A DNA stretch of 7,132 bases from Desulfovibrio sp. (GTDB taxonomy: Bacteria > Desulfobacterota > Desulfovibrionia > Desulfovibrionales > Desulfovibrionaceae). Where the stretch lies: the NCBI GenBank assembly GCA_022837365.1, contig JALHHV010000080.1:1-7132 (forward strand), written 5' to 3'. The translations under genes and the position numbers were made by a program. Below, piece by piece: positions 1 to 7,132 of the stretch (position 1 is the first letter of the stretch; each line of letters starts with the position of its first letter). Below the pieces are notes generated by a model. That model did not search any database, was not told the DNA's origin, and saw only the letters and a list, made by a program, of their open reading frames with translations.

Positions 1-1191
1 TCCACCCCGCACGCCTCGTTGAACAGCTTGGTCTGCGACAGGGCGTTCTGGCCGGTGGTGGCGTCGATGACCAGGATGGAGCGGTGCGGCGCGCCGGGGT
101 GCTTGCGTTCCAGCACGCGGCGGATCTTGTGCAGTTCTTCCATCAGGTTGACCTTGGTGTGCAGGCGGCCCGCCGTGTCCACGAACACGATGTCGTAGCC
201 GCCCGCCAGGGCCACGTCCATGGCCTCGAAGGCCACGGCGGCCGGGTCGGACCCGGCGGTCTTGGCGTGGAAGTCGGCCCCCACGCGCTTCGCCCACACT
301 TCCAGCTGCTCGATGGCCGCCGCGCGGAAGGTGTCCGCCGCGGCGATGAGCACCTTCTTGCCCTGCATGCGGGCGCGGTGGGCCAGCTTGGCGATGGTGG
401 TGGTCTTGCCCACGCCGTTGACGCCGATCATCAGCACCACCTCGGGCGGGGTCACGGCGGCGATATTCGGCGCGCAACAGGTCGCGGAAGGCGGCCGGGT
501 CGTCGGTGTCGGCCTTGCGGGCGCGCTCCTTCAGGCGGCCCACCAACTGCATGGCGGGCTCGAAGCCCACGTCGGCCATGATCAGGATTTCTTCCAGCTC
601 TTCCCAGAACTTAGCGTCGATGCGGCCGTGCGAGGCCAGCAGGGCGTCGATGCGGCCGGTGATCTGCTCGCGCGTGCGTGCGAGGCCCTCGGTCAGCTTC
701 AGGAACAGGCGGTTGCGCTCGTCCTCCTCGTCCTCCAGGTCAAGGGCGAGGGCCAGGCGGTATTGCAGTTCGGAGCGAAAGTCGCCCACGTACCGGTAGT
801 CCATGGCGGAGAGCCAGCGCCGGAAGTCCGCGATGAAGGCTTCGGCCTCGGCGTCCGGGGTTTCCAGCGCGGCGAACAGGAAGCGCAGCCGTTCCCACAA
901 GGCGTCGCCCGCCTCGTCCACACCCGCCAGCACGTGGCCCAGCCACACCGAAAGGCGCGGCTCGGACTGGCGCAGGGCGCGGGCAAGCTCGGCCCGCCAC
1001 GGGGCGTCCTGTGCGCCGGGCACGCCGGGGGTACCGGGCGCTTCGGGTGCGCCGGCTGCGTCGGACGCAGCCGCTTCCGGGGCCGCAGCGGCCTCGGCCT
1101 GGGCCCCGGCTTCCGGGGTTCCGGGCGGGGCCTTGGGCGCGTCCGTCTCGCGGGGCGTCCACAATTTCTTGATGGCGCTGAAGAAACCCAT
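1..1191 (-). CDS. ftsY: Signal recognition particle receptor FtsY (3' end outside window; frame break near 468)
   Basis: FtsY is the membrane-associated SRP receptor GTPase that docks Ffh-ribosome complexes at the translocon. The start ATG at 1191 gives MGFFSAIKKLW, a likely amphipathic membrane-targeting helix, and is preceded by GGAGGA (1198-1203) at 6 nt spacing. An Ala/Pro-rich linker and an acidic-rich region follow, then the N domain (IDALLASHGRIDAKFWEELEE, around 601-665). The G domain is seen in a different frame: P-loop GVNGVGKTTT (about 396-425), DTFRAAAIEQL, DTAGR and IDATTGQNA, ending at NEACGV at the window edge. The N domain reads in the frame of the start codon up to ...DLLRAE (466-474). 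The G domain reads one frame away from NIAAVTPPEVVLMIG onward (467 downward). From memory of E. coli FtsY, the N-G junction is also about ten residues short, so a deletion of about 29 nt fits better than a single inserted base. FtsY is normally essential, so an assembly error is as likely as a real lesion. Confidence 0.93.
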   Translation of the reverse strand, partial: MGFFSAIKKLWTPRETDAPKAPPGTPEAGAQAEAAAAPEAAASDAAGAPEAPGTPGVPGAQDAPWRAELARALRQSEPRLSVWLGHVLAGVDEAGDALWERLRFLFAALETPDAEAEAFIADFRRWLSAMDYRYVGDFRSELQYRLALALDLEDEEDERNRLFLKLTEGLARTREQITGRIDALLASHGRIDAKFWEELEEILIMADVGFEPAMQLVGRLKERARKADTDDPAAFRDLLRAEYRRRDPARGGADDRRQRRGQDHHHRQAGPPRPHAGQEGAHRRGGHLPRGGHRAAGSVGEARGGRLPRQDRRVRPGRRGLRGHGRGPGGRLRHRVRGHGGPPAHQGQPDGRTAQDPPRAGTQAPRRAAPLHPGHRRHHRPERPVADQAVQRGVRGG

Positions 1192-1301: not shown

Positions 1302-1469
1302 GGTGACGGGCGCGGGGGCGGCGCGCACGGGCCGCGCCGCCCGCATTTCCGTCGCGCCGCGCCGCCGCCGCTCTTTCCATCGCATGGCGCATCGTGTACG
1401 TTGTCGTAAACCGGAAGCCCCACGCGCCGCGCGGTGCTTCGAGACAGGCGACGGGGACATGACGCCCGC

Positions 1470-3785
1470 ATGAGCAACACCACCGCCAGCAAAGGACTCT
1501 CCGTCCCGGACATCATCAAGGGGCGCTCGCTGTCGCGCGACCTCACCGTGAGCCTCGTGGTGATGGTGCTGGTGGTGGTGGCGGCGCTGTTCTCGTTCGT
1601 CTACGTGCAGATTTCGCGCGACATGCTGCACGAGGTGGACCGCAAGGCCGACGAATACATCACCCGCCTGGCCGACATCCTGTCCATTCCCATGTGGAAC
1701 TTCGACGCGCGCACCATGGACCAGATCGGCTCGGTGTTCGCACAGTACGAACTGATCAACGAAATCCACATCGAGGACGCCCAGGGCAACACCCTGTTCC
1801 GGGTGCGCAAGGGCACCGACCCCGACGCCACCGTGTTCCGCGAGCGGGCCGTGCGCTTCGAGTCCGAGACCATCGGCCGGGTATCCATGGTGGTCACCCT
1901 GCAGGAATACCGGCGCAGCCTGGAGCGATTGCTGAAGGCCAGCGCCCTGATCATGGGCAGCGTGCTGGTGGTGTTGCTGGCCTCCACCGGGGTGCTGCTG
2001 CGGGTGTTCCTGCGCCGCCCGCTGGAGGCGCTGCAATCGGGCATGGACCAGATCGCCCGGGGCGACTTCGCCTACGACATGGGCTCCATCGCCCATGCCG
2101 AGCTGGCCCAGATCGCGGAAAACTTCTCGCGCATGTGCAGCCAGGTGGAGCAGCGCGAGAACGAACTGCACGCCATCAACACCAAGCTCCAGGACGAGAT
2201 CCACAACCGCCGCCAGACCGAGTTGGCCCTGCGCGCCAGCGAGGAACGCTACGCCCTGGTGGTCGGCGGCACCAGCGACGGCATCTGGGACTGGGACCTC
2301 GTCACCAACACCGTCTATTTCTCGCCGCGCTGGAAATCCATCGTGGGCTACGAGGACCACGAACTGCCCAACCGGGTAGAGGAGTGGAAAGAGCGGATCC
2401 ACCCGGACGATGTGGACCTCGTGCTGCGCGGCCACGACGACTATCTTGCCCGGCGCGTGCCCGAGTTTCAGGTGGAATACCGCATGCGCCACAAGGACGA
2501 CAGCTACCGCTGGATCCTGGGGCGCGGCGCGGCCCTGTGGGACGCCAACGGCGTGCCCGTGCGCATGGCCGGGGCCCACACCGACATCACCACCCGCAAG
2601 GAAGTGGAGCAGGAACTGCGCGAGGCCAAGAACAACCTCGACAACATCCTGAACGCCATGCCCTCGATCATCGTGGGGGTGGACCAGTCCGGCAGCATCA
2701 CCCTGTGGAACCGCACGGCCGAGCGGGTCACCGGCCAGCCGCGCGACGCGGTGCTGGGCAACCCCGTGGGCGAGGCCCTGCCCGACTTCGGCTTTCTGCT
2801 GGACGAAATCCGCCGCTCCATCGCCGAGGGCGGCACCATCTCGCTGGACAAGACCCCGGTGCCCGGCCCCGGGGTGACCCGGTATTTCGACATCGTCATC
2901 TACCCCGTGGTCTCGCGGGGCAGCTTCGGCGCGGTGGTGCGCCTGGACGACATCACCGGCCGCATCCGCATCGAGGAGATGATGGTGCAGACCGAGAAGA
3001 TGCTGTCGGTGGGCGGCCTTGCGGCGGGCATGGCGCACGAGATCAACAACCCCCTCGGGGGCATCCTTCAGGGCGCGCAGAACATCCAGCGCAGGCTGGA
3101 CCCGGAGTTTGCCCCCAACGTGGTGGCCGCGGAAGAGTCGGGCTGCTCCATGGACTCCATCCGGGGCTACCTGGACCGCCGGGGCATCCTGCGTTTTCTG
3201 GACGGCATCCGCGAGTCGGGCAACCGCGCGGCCAACATCGTCTCCAACATGCTGGAATTCAGCCGCCGCAGCGAATCGCGCTGGCAGCGGGTGTCGCTGC
3301 CGTACCTGGTGGACCGCACTCTGGAACTGGCGGCCAACGACTACGACCTGAAGAAGAAGTACGACTTCCGGCACATCGACATCGTGCGCGACTTCGCGCC
3401 CGACCTGCCCGACCTGCCGTGCATGCCCACCGAAATCGAGCAGGTGCTGCTGAACCTGTTCAAGAACGCCGCCCAGGCCATGCACCTGCGCGGCGAACGG
3501 CCCGACCCGCCGCGCATTTCCGTGACCCTGCGGCGCGAGGGCGGCATGGTGCGCATCGACGTGGCCGACAACGGCCCCGGCATGGAAGAGGACGTGCGGC
3601 GCAGGGTGTTCGAGCCGTTCTTCACCACCAAGAGCGTGGGGGAGGGCACCGGCCTTGGCCTTTCGGTGTCGTACTTCATCATCACCACCAACCACGGCGG
3701 CACCTTCACCGTGGAGTCGGAACCGGACCGGGGCACGGTGTTCACCCTGCGGTTGCCCGTGGAGCAGCGCCACGTGACCACGTAG
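1470..3785 (+). CDS. Membrane-bound PAS sensor histidine kinase (HAMP, two PAS, HisKA, HATPase)
   Basis: This 771-residue protein is an orphan two-component sensor that autophosphorylates a histidine in response to a signal. Domains in order: TM1 (about 25-46), a periplasmic sensor of about 110 residues with the motif LSIPMWNFD (71-79), TM2 (about 157-181), HAMP (about 182-232), a coiled linker, PAS1 with PAC (about 258-378, ERYALVVGGTSDGIWDWD), PAS2 (about 390-500), an H-box with phospho-acceptor His523 in MAHEINNPLGG, and a HATPase domain with E657/N666 (N box), DNGPGM (D700), FEPFFTTK and GTGLGLSV (about 726-733). The catalytic motifs are intact. H523 to the LEFSRR end of the second helix spans about 74 residues, some 30 more than a minimal DHp hairpin, so the hairpin carries an insertion (AAEESGC...YLDRRG). 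I prefer ATG 1470, with GGGGA at 1453-1457, over the in-frame GTG at 1434, which lacks a ribosome site. No response regulator adjoins it. The stop codon lies inside the stem of element E1. The ligand is unknown. Confidence 0.95.
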   Translation: MSNTTASKGLSVPDIIKGRSLSRDLTVSLVVMVLVVVAALFSFVYVQISRDMLHEVDRKADEYITRLADILSIPMWNFDARTMDQIGSVFAQYELINEIHIEDAQGNTLFRVRKGTDPDATVFRERAVRFESETIGRVSMVVTLQEYRRSLERLLKASALIMGSVLVVLLASTGVLLRVFLRRPLEALQSGMDQIARGDFAYDMGSIAHAELAQIAENFSRMCSQVEQRENELHAINTKLQDEIHNRRQTELALRASEERYALVVGGTSDGIWDWDLVTNTVYFSPRWKSIVGYEDHELPNRVEEWKERIHPDDVDLVLRGHDDYLARRVPEFQVEYRMRHKDDSYRWILGRGAALWDANGVPVRMAGAHTDITTRKEVEQELREAKNNLDNILNAMPSIIVGVDQSGSITLWNRTAERVTGQPRDAVLGNPVGEALPDFGFLLDEIRRSIAEGGTISLDKTPVPGPGVTRYFDIVIYPVVSRGSFGAVVRLDDITGRIRIEEMMVQTEKMLSVGGLAAGMAHEINNPLGGILQGAQNIQRRLDPEFAPNVVAAEESGCSMDSIRGYLDRRGILRFLDGIRESGNRAANIVSNMLEFSRRSESRWQRVSLPYLVDRTLELAANDYDLKKKYDFRHIDIVRDFAPDLPDLPCMPTEIEQVLLNLFKNAAQAMHLRGERPDPPRISVTLRREGGMVRIDVADNGPGMEEDVRRRVFEPFFTTKSVGEGTGLGLSVSYFIITTNHGGTFTVESEPDRGTVFTLRLPVEQRHVTT

Positions 3786-4159
3786 GAGCTGTTTCTAACT
3801 AGTCCTTTCGCTCGTTGGCATCCGACCCGAAGGGCGCGAAGCGTGCCCGTTGGGCGAGCTTGCGAGCCTTACGGGCATCGTGCGCAGAGCGGTCAAACTT
3901 CGCCTGCCATAGCTCTGCTGTCCTTATCCGTAAGACTCGCGCTGTGCGCTCGCCTAACGGCTAAGGCTCGGTCGAATACGATAAGAGTACGCTCTGCGGT
4001 CGCCATCCGTAAGGTTCGCTTCGCTCACCTAACGGCTGCCGCGCTCTGCGGTCCTCATCCGTAATGCTCGTAGACTCGCATAACGGCTGAGGCACTCCCT
4101 CATGGCAGGCTCGTTTTCCTGGCCAACGAATGAAAATCCTGAGTTAGAAACAGCCCCTA
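3783..4159 (+). repeat. Element E1: 377-nt structured palindromic 3' element, expanded copy
   Basis: This is the largest of three related elements. The outer arms are 3783-3800 and 4142-4159 (TAGG[A/G]GCTGTTTCTAACT, 17 of 18 paired), and the kinase stop TAG is the first three bases of the arm. Nested helices follow: TTTC/GAAA (3806-3809/4132-4135), CGTTGGC/GCCAACG (3813-3819/4122-4128) and GCCTGCCAT/ATGGCAGGC (3902-3910/4102-4110). The apical motif CGGTC-GAAT-AC-GAT-AAGAGT-ACG-CTC is at 3969-3993. Compared with E2, three stretches are extra: 3820-3891, 3911-3967 and 3990-4093. Removing them leaves 147 nt, the length of E2. The stretch 4094-4120 (27 nt) and the 19 nt GTCAAACTTCGCCTGCCAT (3892-3910) are identical to E2. 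Short open frames across it are not conserved between copies, so I read it as non-coding. It fills most of the gap between the kinase and the porin. Confidence 0.85.
3847..4086. repeat. Four nested mini-hairpin modules inside E1
   Basis: A module of the form CCGTAAGgCTCG...GCTCGCCTAACGG, itself able to fold with CCGT/ACGG ends, occurs at 3928-3960, 4007-4035 and 4059-4086 on the plus strand. It occurs once inverted, at 3847-3874. The loops differ between copies. The three plus copies are each led by GCTCTGC(T/G)GTC (3912, 3991, 4043). The flanking stem extends with compensating bases: CCTTA/TAAGG in the first and CCTCA/TGAGG in the third, with one mismatch in the second. The inverted copy is followed by GCAGAGCGGTC at 3883-3893. 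None is present in E2 or E3, so these look like a second repeat that has colonised the loops of E1. Confidence 0.75.
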
Positions 4160-4195
4160 GGGCGCGCCACTCCGCGTGCCGCACGGCCTTCTTTC

Positions 4196-4224
4196 TTGCC
4201 ATCAGGCACAAATGTTTCTACATG
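4196..4224 (+). promoter_or_regulatory. Possible promoter of the FadL-like gene (weak)
   Basis: TTGCCA (4196-4201) and TACATG (4219-4224) are separated by 17 nt, in the most AT-rich part of the 210-bp stretch (4160-4369) between E1 and the porin start. This would leave a leader of roughly 140 nt, in which I see no recognisable riboswitch. The -10 match is poor, so this is only a candidate. Confidence 0.22.
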
Positions 4225-4360
4225 TTGCCGCTCGGCACTGCACGATGTGGACAAGGGCGGCCAGCAGCCGTCCGCCATTGGCGCGCGAGGGAACGTTGTC
4301 CGGTTTCGGGCGGCGTGCGCGCCGGGTTGTCGCACGGCCATTTCCGGCCGCATGCATATC

Positions 4361-4365
4361 GGAGG
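4361..4365 (+). promoter_or_regulatory. Ribosome binding site that favours the GTG start at 4370
   Basis: GGAGG at 4361-4365 lies 4 nt before GTG 4370. It lies inside the reading frame if ATG 4352 is used instead, and that ATG has no purine-rich site upstream. The spacing is short, so the choice is favoured but not proven. Confidence 0.55.
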
Positions 4366-4369
4366 CAAT

Positions 4370-5590
4370 GTGTTCCGCGTTCTTCTGGCCGCGATGCTCT
4401 GCGTCGCGGCATGGGCTCCTTTTGCCGAAGCAGCGGGCTTCGCCATGTACGAATTCAGCGCCCGGGGCAACGCGCTGGGCGGGGCCATGACGGCCCGCCG
4501 CGCCGACCCTTCGTCCATCGCCTTCAACCCCGCCCTGGTCACGCAACTGGAAGGCACCCAGACCCTGGCCGGGGCCACCGTGGTGGCGCCGCAGGTGTCC
4601 GTGGACGTCAACGGCCACACCACCGATGCGGAGTCCAACATGTGGACCATTCCGCACGCCTACGCCACCACCCAGATCAACGACAACCTGTTCCTGGGCG
4701 TGGGCACCTTCTCGCGCTTCGGCCTGGGCACGGAGTATCCCTCCGGCTGGGTGGGCCGCAACGACCTGCGCTCGGTGAACATCCAGTCCATGTCGGTGAA
4801 CCCGGTGCTGGGCGTGCGCAACGGCAACCTGGCCCTGGGCCTGGGCGTCGAGGCCATGTGGTTCGAATACGACCAGCGGCAGGCCACCACCGTGGGCGCC
4901 ACCGACATCGACGGCCGGGTCAAGGGTGATTCCACCGGCTTCGGCCTGAACGGCGGCCTGTGGTGGAAGGCCACGGACAGCGTGGCCCTGGGGGCCAGCT
5001 TCCGCACGCCCATCAAGCAGGACCTGGAAGGCCGCGCCACCTTCGACAAGAACGGCGCGCCGGTGCCGTCCACCTGGTTCAGGGATACCGGCGCCGAAGG
5101 CGCCGTGACCCTGCCCGGCGAGGTGCGCATGGGCGTGGCGTGGGAGCCGGACGACCGCTGGAGCGTGGCCGTGGACGTGACGCGCACCTTCTGGAGCAGC
5201 TACGACGAACTGCGCATCGGCTATGACGACGCACTGGCCCCCGGCGTGACGGAAAGCCTGAAGACCACCGAATGGCGCGACGTGTGGCGCCTGGGCATCG
5301 GCGTGGAATACCGCCTGACCGGCATGGTGGACCTGCGCGCGGGCTACGTCTACGACTGCGAGCCCGTGAACCCCGACCATCTCGACTTTCTGGTGCCCGC
5401 CAACGACCGCCAGTTGTACAGCCTGGGCGTGGGCCTGCACGACGGCCCGTGGAGGGTGGACGTTTCGTACACCTATTTGTGGATCAAGGGCCGCGACGGC
5501 GAGGTGGAGGGCAGGAACGGCATCTACGACGTGCGCTTCCACGACGGGGATGCGCAGTTGGTCGGGCTTTCCGCGGGCTGGCAATTCTAA
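4370..5590 (+). CDS. FadL/OmpP1/TodX-family outer-membrane transport protein
   Basis: The family forms 14-stranded outer-membrane barrels that take up long-chain fatty acids or aromatic hydrocarbons by lateral diffusion. With the GTG start the product is 406 residues, typical for the family. It begins with a signal peptide (FRVLLAAMLCVAAWAPFAEA) and probable cleavage before AGFAMYEFSARGNALGGA. That segment, followed by RRADPSSIAFNPALVTQL, is the hallmark N-terminal hatch region of FadL proteins (AGF...GNA..G.A....D.S....NPA). The rest is alternating aromatic/Gly-rich beta strands (LFLGVGTFSRFGLGTEYPSGWVGR and so on), ending in AGWQF with the C-terminal Phe recognised by the BAM machinery. An in-frame ATG at 4352 would add six residues, but GGAGG at 4361 favours GTG 4370. 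The gene stands alone, with E1 upstream and E3 starting on its stop codon. The substrate cannot be read from the sequence. Confidence 0.92.
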   Translation: MFRVLLAAMLCVAAWAPFAEAAGFAMYEFSARGNALGGAMTARRADPSSIAFNPALVTQLEGTQTLAGATVVAPQVSVDVNGHTTDAESNMWTIPHAYATTQINDNLFLGVGTFSRFGLGTEYPSGWVGRNDLRSVNIQSMSVNPVLGVRNGNLALGLGVEAMWFEYDQRQATTVGATDIDGRVKGDSTGFGLNGGLWWKATDSVALGASFRTPIKQDLEGRATFDKNGAPVPSTWFRDTGAEGAVTLPGEVRMGVAWEPDDRWSVAVDVTRTFWSSYDELRIGYDDALAPGVTESLKTTEWRDVWRLGIGVEYRLTGMVDLRAGYVYDCEPVNPDHLDFLVPANDRQLYSLGVGLHDGPWRVDVSYTYLWIKGRDGEVEGRNGIYDVRFHDGDAQLVGLSAGWQF

Positions 5591-5722
5591 GGGCGCAAGG
5601 GTCCTTTTGCCCTCTGCCCTCGTCAGAAGCCTTTTTTATTCCGGTCACGCACGGAAGAGTGCGCTCCCTGCATAAAAAAGGACTTCTTCCTTGGCAGAGA
5701 ACAAAAATCCTCCTTGCGCCTT
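5589..5722 (+). repeat. Element E3: 134-nt structured palindromic 3' element
   Basis: This begins on the last two bases of the porin stop TAA. Helices are: GGCGCAAGG/CCTTGCGCC (5592-5600/5712-5720), TTTTG/CAAAA (5605-5609/5702-5706), CTCTGCC/GGCAGAG (5612-5618/5693-5699) and GAAG plus CCTTTTTTAT with ATAAAAAAGG plus CTTC (5626-5639/5672-5686, one bulged A). The apical 32 nt (5640-5671) contain CGGTC-ACGC-AC-GG-AAGAGT-GCG-CTC, with CGCAC/GUGCG able to pair around GGAAGA. It shares helix order, inter-helix sequence (GTCCTTTTGCCC on one side, AACAAAAATCCT on the other) and apex with E1 and E2. Every main helix has a different sequence yet remains paired. Confidence 0.8.
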
Positions 5723-5785
5723 CATGCGCAGACGAGGTGAGGCCGCTTTTGCAGGCATGCAACGAGGCGAGTGCGTTGGAAATGA

Positions 5786-5825
5786 AAAGGGGAGGAACCT
5801 TGCGGTTCCTCCCCTTTGGTTTTGT
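5786..5825. terminator. Strong intrinsic terminator, probably bidirectional
   Basis: A perfect 14-bp stem AAAGGGGAGGAACC / GGTTCCTCCCCTTT (5786-5799 / 5804-5817) closes a TTGC loop. On the plus strand it is followed by GGTTTTGT. On the minus strand the loop reads GCAA and the stem is followed by TCATTT. It sits between two convergent units, after E3 for the porin and after E2 for the minus-strand genes. I see nothing else in 5723-5785. Confidence 0.85.
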
Positions 5826-5833
5826 GTGCCTTA

Positions 5834-5980
5834 AGAGGCCGTTTTCAAATTAGGATTTTTGTTCGTTGGCGAGGAAAACGAGCCTGCCATGAGGGAGTAT
5901 ACTCTTGCTGTATTCGACCGAAATGGCAGGCGAAGTTTGACGAAGCCAACGGGCAAAAAGACAATTTGAATACGGCCTCT
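5834..5980 (-). repeat. Element E2: 147-nt structured palindromic 3' element, compact copy
   Basis: Read on the minus strand, it starts on the last two bases of the TAG stop of the 5979-6473 gene. The outer arms 5963-5980 and 5834-5851 pair 17 of 18 (AGAGGCCGT[A/T]TTCAAATT). Inner helices are TTTTTG/CAAAAA (5856-5861/5954-5959), CGTTGGC/GCCAACG (5864-5870/5945-5951) and GCCTGCCAT/ATGGCAGGC (5882-5890/5923-5931). The apical 32 nt (5891-5922) read CGGTC-GAAT-AC-AGC-AAGAGT-ATA-CTC on the minus strand. It is in the same orientation to its upstream gene as E1 and E3, and is nearly identical to E1 in the core while differing from it in the outer arms. Confidence 0.85.
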
Positions 5981-6473
5981 AGATCAGTTTGTCGAAAATG
6001 AGCTTGTACGTGGAGCGGATGTGCAGGGCCAGGCGCAGGCGCAGGGCCTTGGCCTCGGCGTCGCCCAGCGAGAGCAGCGAGACCAGGTGGTGGGCCGCCT
6101 CGGAGAAGTCGGCGTCGCCCTTGTGTTCCAGCATGTCCACGTAGGCGCGCACCTTTTCCGCCAGCGCGGCCGCCTCCTTGCGGGCGGCATTGCGCGGCGG
6201 GGCCTGCTGGAAGCGTTCCAGGAACGTCTCGAAGATCACCCCGAAGTCGTCCGGAAACGATCTGCGCAGGGCCAGCCGCCACAGGGCGATGAACAGGGCC
6301 CGCAGGTCCTGCAGCGCGCGCTTGCGCCGCAGGAACTGCATGCGGCCGATGCCCATGGCGTCGATTTCCGGCGTGAAGTCGAAGGAATCGAGCAGGGCGG
6401 CGAAGTTGTCCAGCACCTCGTCGATGGTGTAGGCGGGCGATGCGCTCATGCCCGGCAGTGGACCGGCGCTCAT
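5979..6473 (-). CDS. Conserved-looking small helical protein of unknown function
   Basis: This is a 164-residue protein that I do not recognise. It has no signal peptide, no membrane segment and no catalytic motif that I can see. It is Leu/Ala/Arg-rich and predicted to be almost all helical: an N-terminal acidic segment (YTIDEVLDNFAALLDSFDF, about 15-33), a basic helix pair (FLRRKRALQDLRALFIALWRLALRR, about 48-72), a middle segment around FGVIFETFLERF, and a C-terminal helical region ending in YKLIFDKLI. The start ATG at 6473 overlaps the TGA of the upstream gene as ATGA, so the two are probably translationally coupled. A second ATG at 6449 (MSASPAYT) is possible. Neither has a clear ribosome site, which favours coupling. 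The frame is intact and codon use matches its neighbours, so it is a believable gene. Its stop overlaps the arm of E2. A cytoplasmic partner of the upstream protein is possible but is inference. Confidence 0.8.
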   Translation of the reverse strand: MSAGPLPGMSASPAYTIDEVLDNFAALLDSFDFTPEIDAMGIGRMQFLRRKRALQDLRALFIALWRLALRRSFPDDFGVIFETFLERFQQAPPRNAARKEAAALAEKVRAYVDMLEHKGDADFSEAAHHLVSLLSLGDAEAKALRLRLALHIRSTYKLIFDKLI

Positions 6474-7132
6474 TCGGCGTCGGCCTCCGCGTGGTGTGCC
6501 GCACCATCTGCATGACCCTCGCCGTCCGCATGGCTTTCACCTTCGGGGGCCGTCCCGGCGGGCTTCTTGCGGCGGCGGCGTCTGCGGCGCTTGGCGGGCG
6601 TGGCCGCGTTGCCGGGGGCGGCGTCCTCGGGGCCGTGCCCGTCGGGCGCGTCGTCGAACTCGTCGTCCAGACCGTCGTCAAGGTCGTCGCCGCCACCCAG
6701 CGCATCGGTCAGCACGGGCTGTACCGGGGCCGCCTTGGGGGCCGATTGGGGGGCCGCCTTGCCCTTGGCGGGGGCCTTGCCCCTGGACGGGGCCTGCGCC
6801 CTGGTCCCGGAGGGCAGCCGCTGGCCGAACACGCTGCCCACCGCAGCAGGGGCATGCCGTCGTCATCGTCCTCGTCGGGGGTCTTGCCACGGGGCGCGGC
6901 CTTGCCCTTTTCGGGCTTGGCGGGCTCGGCCTTGCCGCCCTTGCCCCTGCCGCGCCGCGCGGCGCGCGCGGGCTTGGCTTCGGCGTCGTCGGCGGGTCCT
7001 GCATCGGCATCGGCAGGCGAGGCATCGGGGGTGTCCGCGTCGGCCTTTTCGGCATCGGCCTTGGCGGCACGGCCGGTGGCCTTGCCCCGGGCCGGGCGCG
7101 CGGGTTTGGCCCTGCCGGGCTTGTCGGGGGCG
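6470..7132 (-). CDS. 3' part of a low-complexity Lys/Ala/Pro-rich protein (partial; frame break near 6843)
   Basis: The gene enters from the right edge, so its N-terminal domain is not visible and its function cannot be assigned. The visible part is disordered: repeats of the AKPARPARGKA / ADAEKADADTPDA type, an acidic patch DEDDDDG, a second acidic patch (DDLDDGLDDEFDD), a run of basic residues (AKRRRRRRRKKPAG) and a His/Asp/Ala tail. Such tails occur on DEAD-box RNA helicases, RNase E/G-type proteins and histone-like proteins, so nucleic-acid binding is plausible but unproven. The frame from 7131 runs to ...DDGMPLL (6844). The frame that ends at the TGA (6470-6472) begins at GTG 6841 (VGSVFGQRLPSGTRAQ). 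Two bases (6842-6843) are left between them, so loss of one base in the CGGTGGG run would explain the break. The gene overlaps the next one by 4 bases. Confidence 0.6.

Follow-up and report, generated by a model that had tools for sequence, protein, structure and literature searches.

A family of probable miniature transposable elements at stop codons in Desulfovibrio and related bacteria

Background

The ERIC repeats of enterobacteria are palindromes of 127 bp with 5'-TA-3' ends that, as summarised in PMC10969869, occur in many copies and are co-transcribed, and in Yersinia their orientation is described as important, with ribosomes exposing an RNase E site (PMC2229807). The same paper describes the RUP element of Streptococcus pneumoniae, which is 107 bp long, has a TA target and has been proposed to be mobilised by IS630-Spn1, an insertion sequence with similar ends. 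The Correia or NEMIS repeats of Neisseria appear in these summaries (PMC2229807, PMC10969869) as palindromic, TA-ended miniature inverted-repeat transposable elements (MITEs) that are cut in mRNA by RNase III. Copies of IS5 in Escherichia coli are flanked by CTAA or CTAG sites, according to PMC11677980. The present analysis concerns the 7,132-nt contig JALHHV010000080.1 of Desulfovibrio sp. (GenBank assembly GCA_022837365.1), hereafter the window, in which a preliminary description had singled out three structured elements, E1, E2 and E3. The explanation preferred here, with a probability of roughly 0.8, is a miniature transposable element whose copies occupy the TA of stop codons and which an IS5-type transposase likely moves in trans.

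The three copies belong to a family of MITEs that is spread over an order and is unusual in its stop-codon landing site and strong strand bias. Like ERIC, the Desulfovibrio elements are palindromic, have TA ends and are present in many copies. Unlike ERIC, so far as the secondary descriptions of the latter go, they lie in the stop codon itself with old copies mostly in sense, one of their subfamilies has a counterpart insertion sequence with closely similar ends, and their core is conserved under differing ends and carries optional hairpin modules. They share with RUP the TA target and a resident insertion sequence with similar ends, but the transposase is of another family and the excerpted description of RUP in PMC2229807 mentions no stop-codon or strand preference. 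The YTAR target pattern and the transposase type are those of IS5 as presented in PMC11677980; IS5 is autonomous, whereas the Desulfovibrio element has no gene. The likeness to Correia/NEMIS, going by summary description only, is that of a TA-ended palindromic MITE in another host. Unlike the REP/BIME palindromes, which measure 20-40 nt and lie beside a Y1 transposase (RAYT), the element is about 150 nt long, so that its size does not fit. Integron attC sites also follow stop codons, and an attC site was considered as a candidate; the TA duplication and the IS5-type ends argue otherwise.

Results and Discussion

Insertion into stop codons

The E1 locus was compared with five relatives in which the element is absent. 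In these, the histidine kinase gene ends in CCACG-TAGGGCG or CCACC-TAGGGCG, and the filled site reads CCACG-TA-[GGAGCTG ... CAGCCCC]-TA-GGGCG. E1 was inserted into the TAG stop of the kinase, at its TA, and these 2 bp are duplicated. The host TA and the first element base, G, again read TAG, and the end of the protein is thereby retained. More generally, in seven of ten further comparisons of filled and empty sites the element-free allele has a TAG stop at the same place (E2 against L166, L167 and L168; L119 against L007; L011 against L116; L056 against L128; L007 against L119); the other three (L128 against L056, L027 against L056, L025 against L129) were not clean. The L157 insertion in G263, a genome of another genus, has element-free orthologs in G115, where the gene also ends in CTAG, and in G169, where it ends elsewhere.

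All three elements of the window begin at the stop codon of the upstream gene and lie in sense, a feature that the preliminary description had overlooked. E3 is present at the same porin stop in six relatives (G005, G007, Nitratidesulfovibrio liaohensis, N. oxamicus, Desulfovibrio sp. A2 and the metagenome-assembled genome Rs511_bin20, the last four being the named relatives of the window's genome). Its arms vary in sequence and length between them and still pair: GGGCGCAAGG/CCTTGCGCC in the window, GGGGGTGCGTCACGAGC/GCTYGTGACGCACCCCC in A2 and Rs511, and GGCGG...CACAAG/CTTGTG...CCGCC in N. oxamicus.

Extent of the family

With E2 as the query, 118 candidates and 40 scored matches were obtained in the window's own genome (G000, 589 contigs), and matches were found in 13 of 59 genomes, its own included. 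A covariance model (R1; 151 positions, 39 pairs) was built from 50 copies; at a threshold of E <= 0.1 its matches numbered 120 in G000 and 105 in G007. At E <= 0.001 it returned 128 matches in G263 and, with the own genome included, matches in 60 of 199 genomes sampled from the family (15 of 44 genera) and in 80 of 297 sampled from the order (19 of 55 genera, four families). Many of the genomes searched hold few copies or none. Among the matches listed from a class-wide search, all fall within the same order, the placement of the 297 genomes being only partly shown; from the names of the relatives we take this order to be Desulfovibrionales. A plasmid collection searched with E2 gave no match. 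Among the titles and abstract openings listed from the openly licensed literature on Desulfovibrio repeats, MITEs, stop codons, IS5 and ERIC, none describes the family, which is weak evidence of absence.

Two unusual settings were also encountered. Five copies stand head-to-tail at a spacing of 152 nt in genome G129 (L075:1501-2257), and one copy of the core motif is found on a viral contig from IMG/VR (L303:6350-6376), adjoining the end of a 964-aa open reading frame (ORF).

A conserved core with covarying helices

The preliminary description credited E1, E3 and E2 with a common helix order, inter-helix sequence and apical motif, and re-analysis found all of these at the places given. The predicted folds are strong, at -180.1 kcal/mol for E1 (z -7.0 against dinucleotide shuffles), -62.6 for E3 (z -6.8) and -60.8 for E2 (z -9.4), values that no shuffle reached. 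It had further held that the helices differ in sequence yet stay paired. This extends well beyond the window: the many copies found have paired arms rather than freely mismatched ones, and in A5, an alignment of 41 copies from many genera that was fitted to the model and hence leans towards structure, standard pairs fill 95.2% of 1592 pair cells. A double change occurs in 34 of the 39 pairs, one-sided states occupy 34 cells against 414 for two-sided states, and the covariation score of 0.70 drops to 0.20 in shuffles and to 0.08-0.11 if one side of each pair is shifted. The unpaired stretches CGTCA, GGTCGARTAC, AAGAGTAYACTCCC and CTTCCTTG are conserved in most of the 41 rows; six rows have a different apex (L074, L160, L079, L080, L081, L087). 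The helices are free in sequence but mutually tied, and most loop bases are fixed. A test of compensatory change between orthologs (43 double changes against 14 expected, 13 locus pairs) is not leaned on here, since L036/L092 and L166/L168 supply 27 of 38 kept doubles and may be replacements, and L014/L127, L049/L089 and L055/L101 are misaligned by module A.

The basic form of the element measures 147-151 nt, and its complementary arms are terminal inverted repeats (in E1, 3783-3800 and 4142-4159 are 94% complementary). The hairpin core is alike across genera, and the ends vary between subfamilies; variants of the outer arm include GGGGCTGTTTC, which defines the subfamily of the window, GGGCCTGTTAAC and GGNGGTGNCGNCAC. 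Extra hairpins occur at three positions in E1 and in many other copies, namely A (about 70 nt), B (about 52 nt) and C (about 50 nt). The greater length of E1, which the preliminary description left unexplained, is due to four such modules added within its 150-nt core, at sites that hold modules in other members of the family too. At the same locus, modules may be present in one species and absent from another (L001/L131, L021/L143, L027/L128, L028/L144). Foldback relatives of 128-271 bp with like ends and rearranged modules, longer or shorter than the usual form, were seen in G263 (L200, L201, L202, L203); L200 reads as the usual core reversed.

Mobility and an IS5-type partner

Copies in G263 are identical over 149 bp (L155/L156) and 152 bp (L156/L157) between unrelated flanks, and 44 of the 117 copies examined there have a partner at an identity of at least 97%. 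Most of these young copies have YTA as their left flank and TAR as their right one. Because a left TTAG may face a right CTAG or CTAA, the duplication is the TA inside a YTAR target. Several young copies, for example L158, L159 and L156 on their right flanks, adjoin a second repeat, AGAGCGTTTTGATATTGAAAATATC..., whose CTAG may be the target.

G263 also holds an insertion sequence (L199) of about 825 bp, or 829 with the flanking CTA/TAG letters, in which two overlapping ORFs match PF13340 (E 3e-22) and PF01609 (E 1e-13) and indicate an IS4/IS5-type transposase. Its ends are GGACCTGTTAACACTA and TAGTGTTAACAGGCCA; those of the element L158 are GGGCCTGTTAACGCTA and TAGTGTTAACAGACCC, and at either end 14 of 16 bases are shared. 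In genome G015 there are five equal-scoring PF13340 hits; L224, the hit that was inspected, is part of an insertion sequence of about 825 bp whose ends, GGGCCTGTTAACACTA, match the ends of the GGGCCTGTTAAC-subfamily elements in 15 of 16 bases. With an insertion sequence of nearly the same ends at hand, the outer arm of the preliminary description is therefore a transposon end, and the likeness of the ends makes mobilisation by IS5-type transposases likely. Of three readings that had been left open at the outset, an RNA fold, a single-stranded DNA fold and a mobile palindrome, that of a mobile palindrome is favoured by the empty sites, the TA duplication, the near-identical dispersed copies and the IS5-type ends, and that of selection on an RNA fold finds no support in the base-pair counts presented below. 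An 846-bp insertion sequence with PF13340 and ends TAGATAGTGTCGTCATTTG is present in G007 (L220, C1:3541738), where no element with such ends was noticed.

Orientation and age of the copies

The relation of the copies to genes was examined in G007 and G263 with codon-usage gene calls made for this analysis, leaving out the 5 weakest of 100 matches in G007 and the 11 weakest of 128 in G263. In G007 (n=95), 71 copies lie in sense with a stop within 20 nt, to which an arm-matching rule adds 9 and inspection by eye 5, for 85 in sense at a stop overall; of the other copies, 3 have a stop within 20 nt but are antisense to it, and 7 are found elsewhere. The stop is TAG in 62 of the 71, compared with 132 of 259 background genes (p 1e-8), an excess to be expected if the G comes from the element.

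In G263, divergence from the nearest copy served as a proxy for age. The share of copies in sense at a stop rises from 15 of 44 (34%) among the young (partner at >= 97%) through 14 of 28 in the middle class (90-97%) to 30 of 45 (67%) among the old (<90%), a trend with p 0.002. In the same order, 3, 2 and 1 copies are antisense at a stop and 26, 12 and 14 lie away from stops; two low-scoring, mutually identical matches without TA ends (143687 and 2436836) are counted as young and elsewhere. Sense copies at stops outnumber antisense ones by 59 to 6 (p 5e-12). The pattern suggests that copies land at YTAR sites and that those in sense at stops are then selectively retained. Of the sites that lie outside ORFs in the sampled G263 DNA, 24 of 93 CTAG and 51 of 528 YTAR are at stops, so that the 18 of 44 young copies at stops represent an enrichment that is modest against CTAG (p 0.04) or strong against YTAR (p 5e-8), depending on the target assumed.

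Several observations weigh against the reading of stop-codon MITEs moved in trans and retained in sense. No insertion sequence with the GGGGCTGTTTC ends of the window's subfamily was found: PF13340 gave no match in seven of eight genomes of the genus that were searched, and the single match, in G007, has other ends. A scan of ends and ORFs in 20 stretches round GGGGCTGTTTC ends (G007, G263, G015) likewise revealed no insertion sequence, and Pfam searches with three ORFs from two of these stretches returned a pentapeptide-repeat protein and otherwise no hit. Because no partner with these ends was found, mobilisation of the window's subfamily in trans is inferred from another subfamily. The young copies at stops are already 15:3 in sense, and part of the bias may therefore be targeting, while 14 of 45 old copies in G263 are still away from stops. 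Finally, between three groups of relatives the coding flanks of the E3 locus are 87-96% identical, whereas the elements are 73-84% identical or not alignable by BLAST; inside the groups the elements are 92-99% identical. Such divergence between groups of sister species is faster than simple descent would give and perhaps reflects concerted change or replacement by another copy.

The first alternative to be weighed is that the elements are purely selfish, with stops as harmless YTAR sites near genes, arms that are re-matched by template switching, and no use to the host. The modest enrichment of young copies over CTAG sites agrees with this, as does the scarcity of one-sided states in A5. It does not predict the sense excess at stops, which is 59 to 6 in G263 and 85 to 3 in G007. 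Template switching has been published as a way of re-matching stems in a single event (PMC8794818); acting alone, it would be expected to erase internal loops, and here the loops are still present and conserved. An element of no use to its host is a possibility to be taken seriously, if a rather doubtful one. The conserved unpaired bases and the strand bias of the old copies point instead to some use of the structure.

Pairing at the level of RNA or DNA

A further alternative is a structured RNA that acts in cis in 3' untranslated regions, with selection on the RNA itself and mobility as a secondary trait. The covarying helices with mostly conserved unpaired bases across genera, the strong folds and the strong sense bias of the old copies would all accord with it. 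In a fold selected as RNA, G-U pairs are expected to far outnumber A-C mismatches. Once rows with less than 85% of pairs formed were excluded, the cross-genus set did show a weak excess of this kind (45 G-U against 27 A-C, p 0.04; 40 of 41 rows kept), but G-U was not above A-C in G007 (33 against 60; 70 of 96 rows) or clearly so in G263 (70 against 63; 63 of 76 rows), even though the aligner favours G-U. Without the row filter the counts were 46 against 30 in A5, 49 against 100 in A3 and 26 against 24 in A4. By comparison, 11 tRNAs from the same loci, a small control, have 8 G-U and no A-C in 132 acceptor and T-stem pairs. The elements combine covarying helices and conserved loops with G-U pairs that are not well above A-C mismatches. 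Furthermore, an Rfam scan of the window gave no family at the gathering score, and the young and middle-aged copies of G263 that lie away from stops also speak against a 3' untranslated RNA. Selection on RNA is accordingly judged unlikely. Since two of the three sets show G-U to be no more common than A-C, the pairing is likely maintained in the DNA, whether through template switching or through selection on a folded single strand.

The latter would mean a structure selected as folded single-stranded DNA and read by a recombinase or replication protein. Covariation almost entirely between Watson-Crick pairs, unpaired bases that are mostly conserved, and G-T and A-C that are about equally rare are consistent with such a fold; however, there is no candidate protein for it, and the ends and the TA duplication fit a double-strand DDE transposase, which renders this explanation improbable as well. 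A family of transcription terminators is very unlikely, and intrinsic termination is rejected as the general function: in sense the 12 nt following the inner helix hold more T (4.4) than in antisense (2.3), and at E1 the terminator-like hairpin that is clear after the stop in four of five relatives is absent beside the insertion (one case), but at E2 and L056 a separate terminator-like hairpin is present whether the site is filled or empty, and the element end has no T-tract.

Organisation of the window

The coordinates of the elements and of the adjoining genes are collected in Table 1. In relatives, some 140-185 nt with a terminator-like hairpin separate the kinase stop from the porin gene, a stretch that is missing after E1 (window 4160-4230). 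An FtsY-like GTPase gene (window 1-1191, minus strand) is split in two frames, ORF 3-455 and a frame upstream of about 480, and a frame change also occurs in the ORFs at 6470-7131. These splits may be sequencing errors, the assembly having 589 contigs.

Table 1. Elements, element parts and genes in the window
Feature	Position	Strand	Basis
E1, long TA-ended form carrying four hairpin modules; lies in the TA of the histidine kinase stop	3783..4159	+	Fold; empty relatives
Left inverted repeat of E1; its first G completes the TAG stop	3785..3800	+	Arm pairing
Right inverted repeat of E1	4142..4157	+	Arm pairing
E1 module A	3823..3891	+	Similar insert at this position in other copies, e.g. (L119, L136, L137, L147)
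E1 module B hairpin	3911..3968	+	Comparison with other copies
E1 module C hairpin	3989..4042	+	Comparison with other copies
E1 module C, second copy	4043..4092	+	Direct-repeat family D1
Histidine kinase TAG stop, host TA plus first G of E1	3783..3785	+	ORF 1434-3785
E3, short form, beginning at the TAA stop (5588-5590) of the OmpP1/FadL-type porin gene	5588..5722	+	R1, 88.5 bits
E2, basic 150-nt form, beginning at the TAG (5979-5981) that ends the 164-aa gene	5834..5981	-	R1, 176.3 bits
Terminator-like hairpin between E3 and E2, retained in relatives without E2	5786..5817	+	
Sensor histidine kinase (HAMP, PAS, HisKA, HATPase_c), gene upstream of E1	1434..3785	+	
Outer-membrane transport protein (PF03349), gene upstream of E3; true start probably later	4196..5590	+	
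164-aa protein without Pfam match, gene upstream of E2	5979..6473	-	

Conclusions

The history of a stop-codon MITE of this kind may be sketched as follows. Each subfamily would be moved by a different insertion sequence and hence carry the ends of that one. New copies would land at YTAR sites in both orientations, and many would be lost. Those in sense at a stop codon would be kept because a hairpin that opens the 3' untranslated region does no harm or is of use, possibly in setting mRNA stability as reported for ERIC elements. The arms would stay matched through a process at the DNA level, whether template switching or selection on the folded strand. The elements may be of use to the cell and so benefit the host, and, by analogy with ERIC, their effect would likely fall on the mRNA of the upstream gene.

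A more ambitious and tentative interpretation, to which we give somewhat less than even chances, is that of a transposon module domesticated across the order. Its core would swap ends between IS5-type transposases, land in stops and rewrite them to TAG, and be kept in sense as a standard part of the 3' end of about 100 genes per genome, with arms matched at the DNA level and loops maintained by selection.

A stop codon can be a safe harbour for such an element, as IS5-type transposases target YTAR, a pattern that TAA and TAG fit, and the first element base restores the stop. Strong covariation is usually taken as proof of an RNA fold; here it comes without a clear G-U signature, which is a warning for covariance-based RNA discovery. 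In genomes with many copies, up to about 100 genes begin their 3' untranslated region with the same hairpin, and the question of when a transposon becomes a regulatory part is therefore directly testable in these bacteria.

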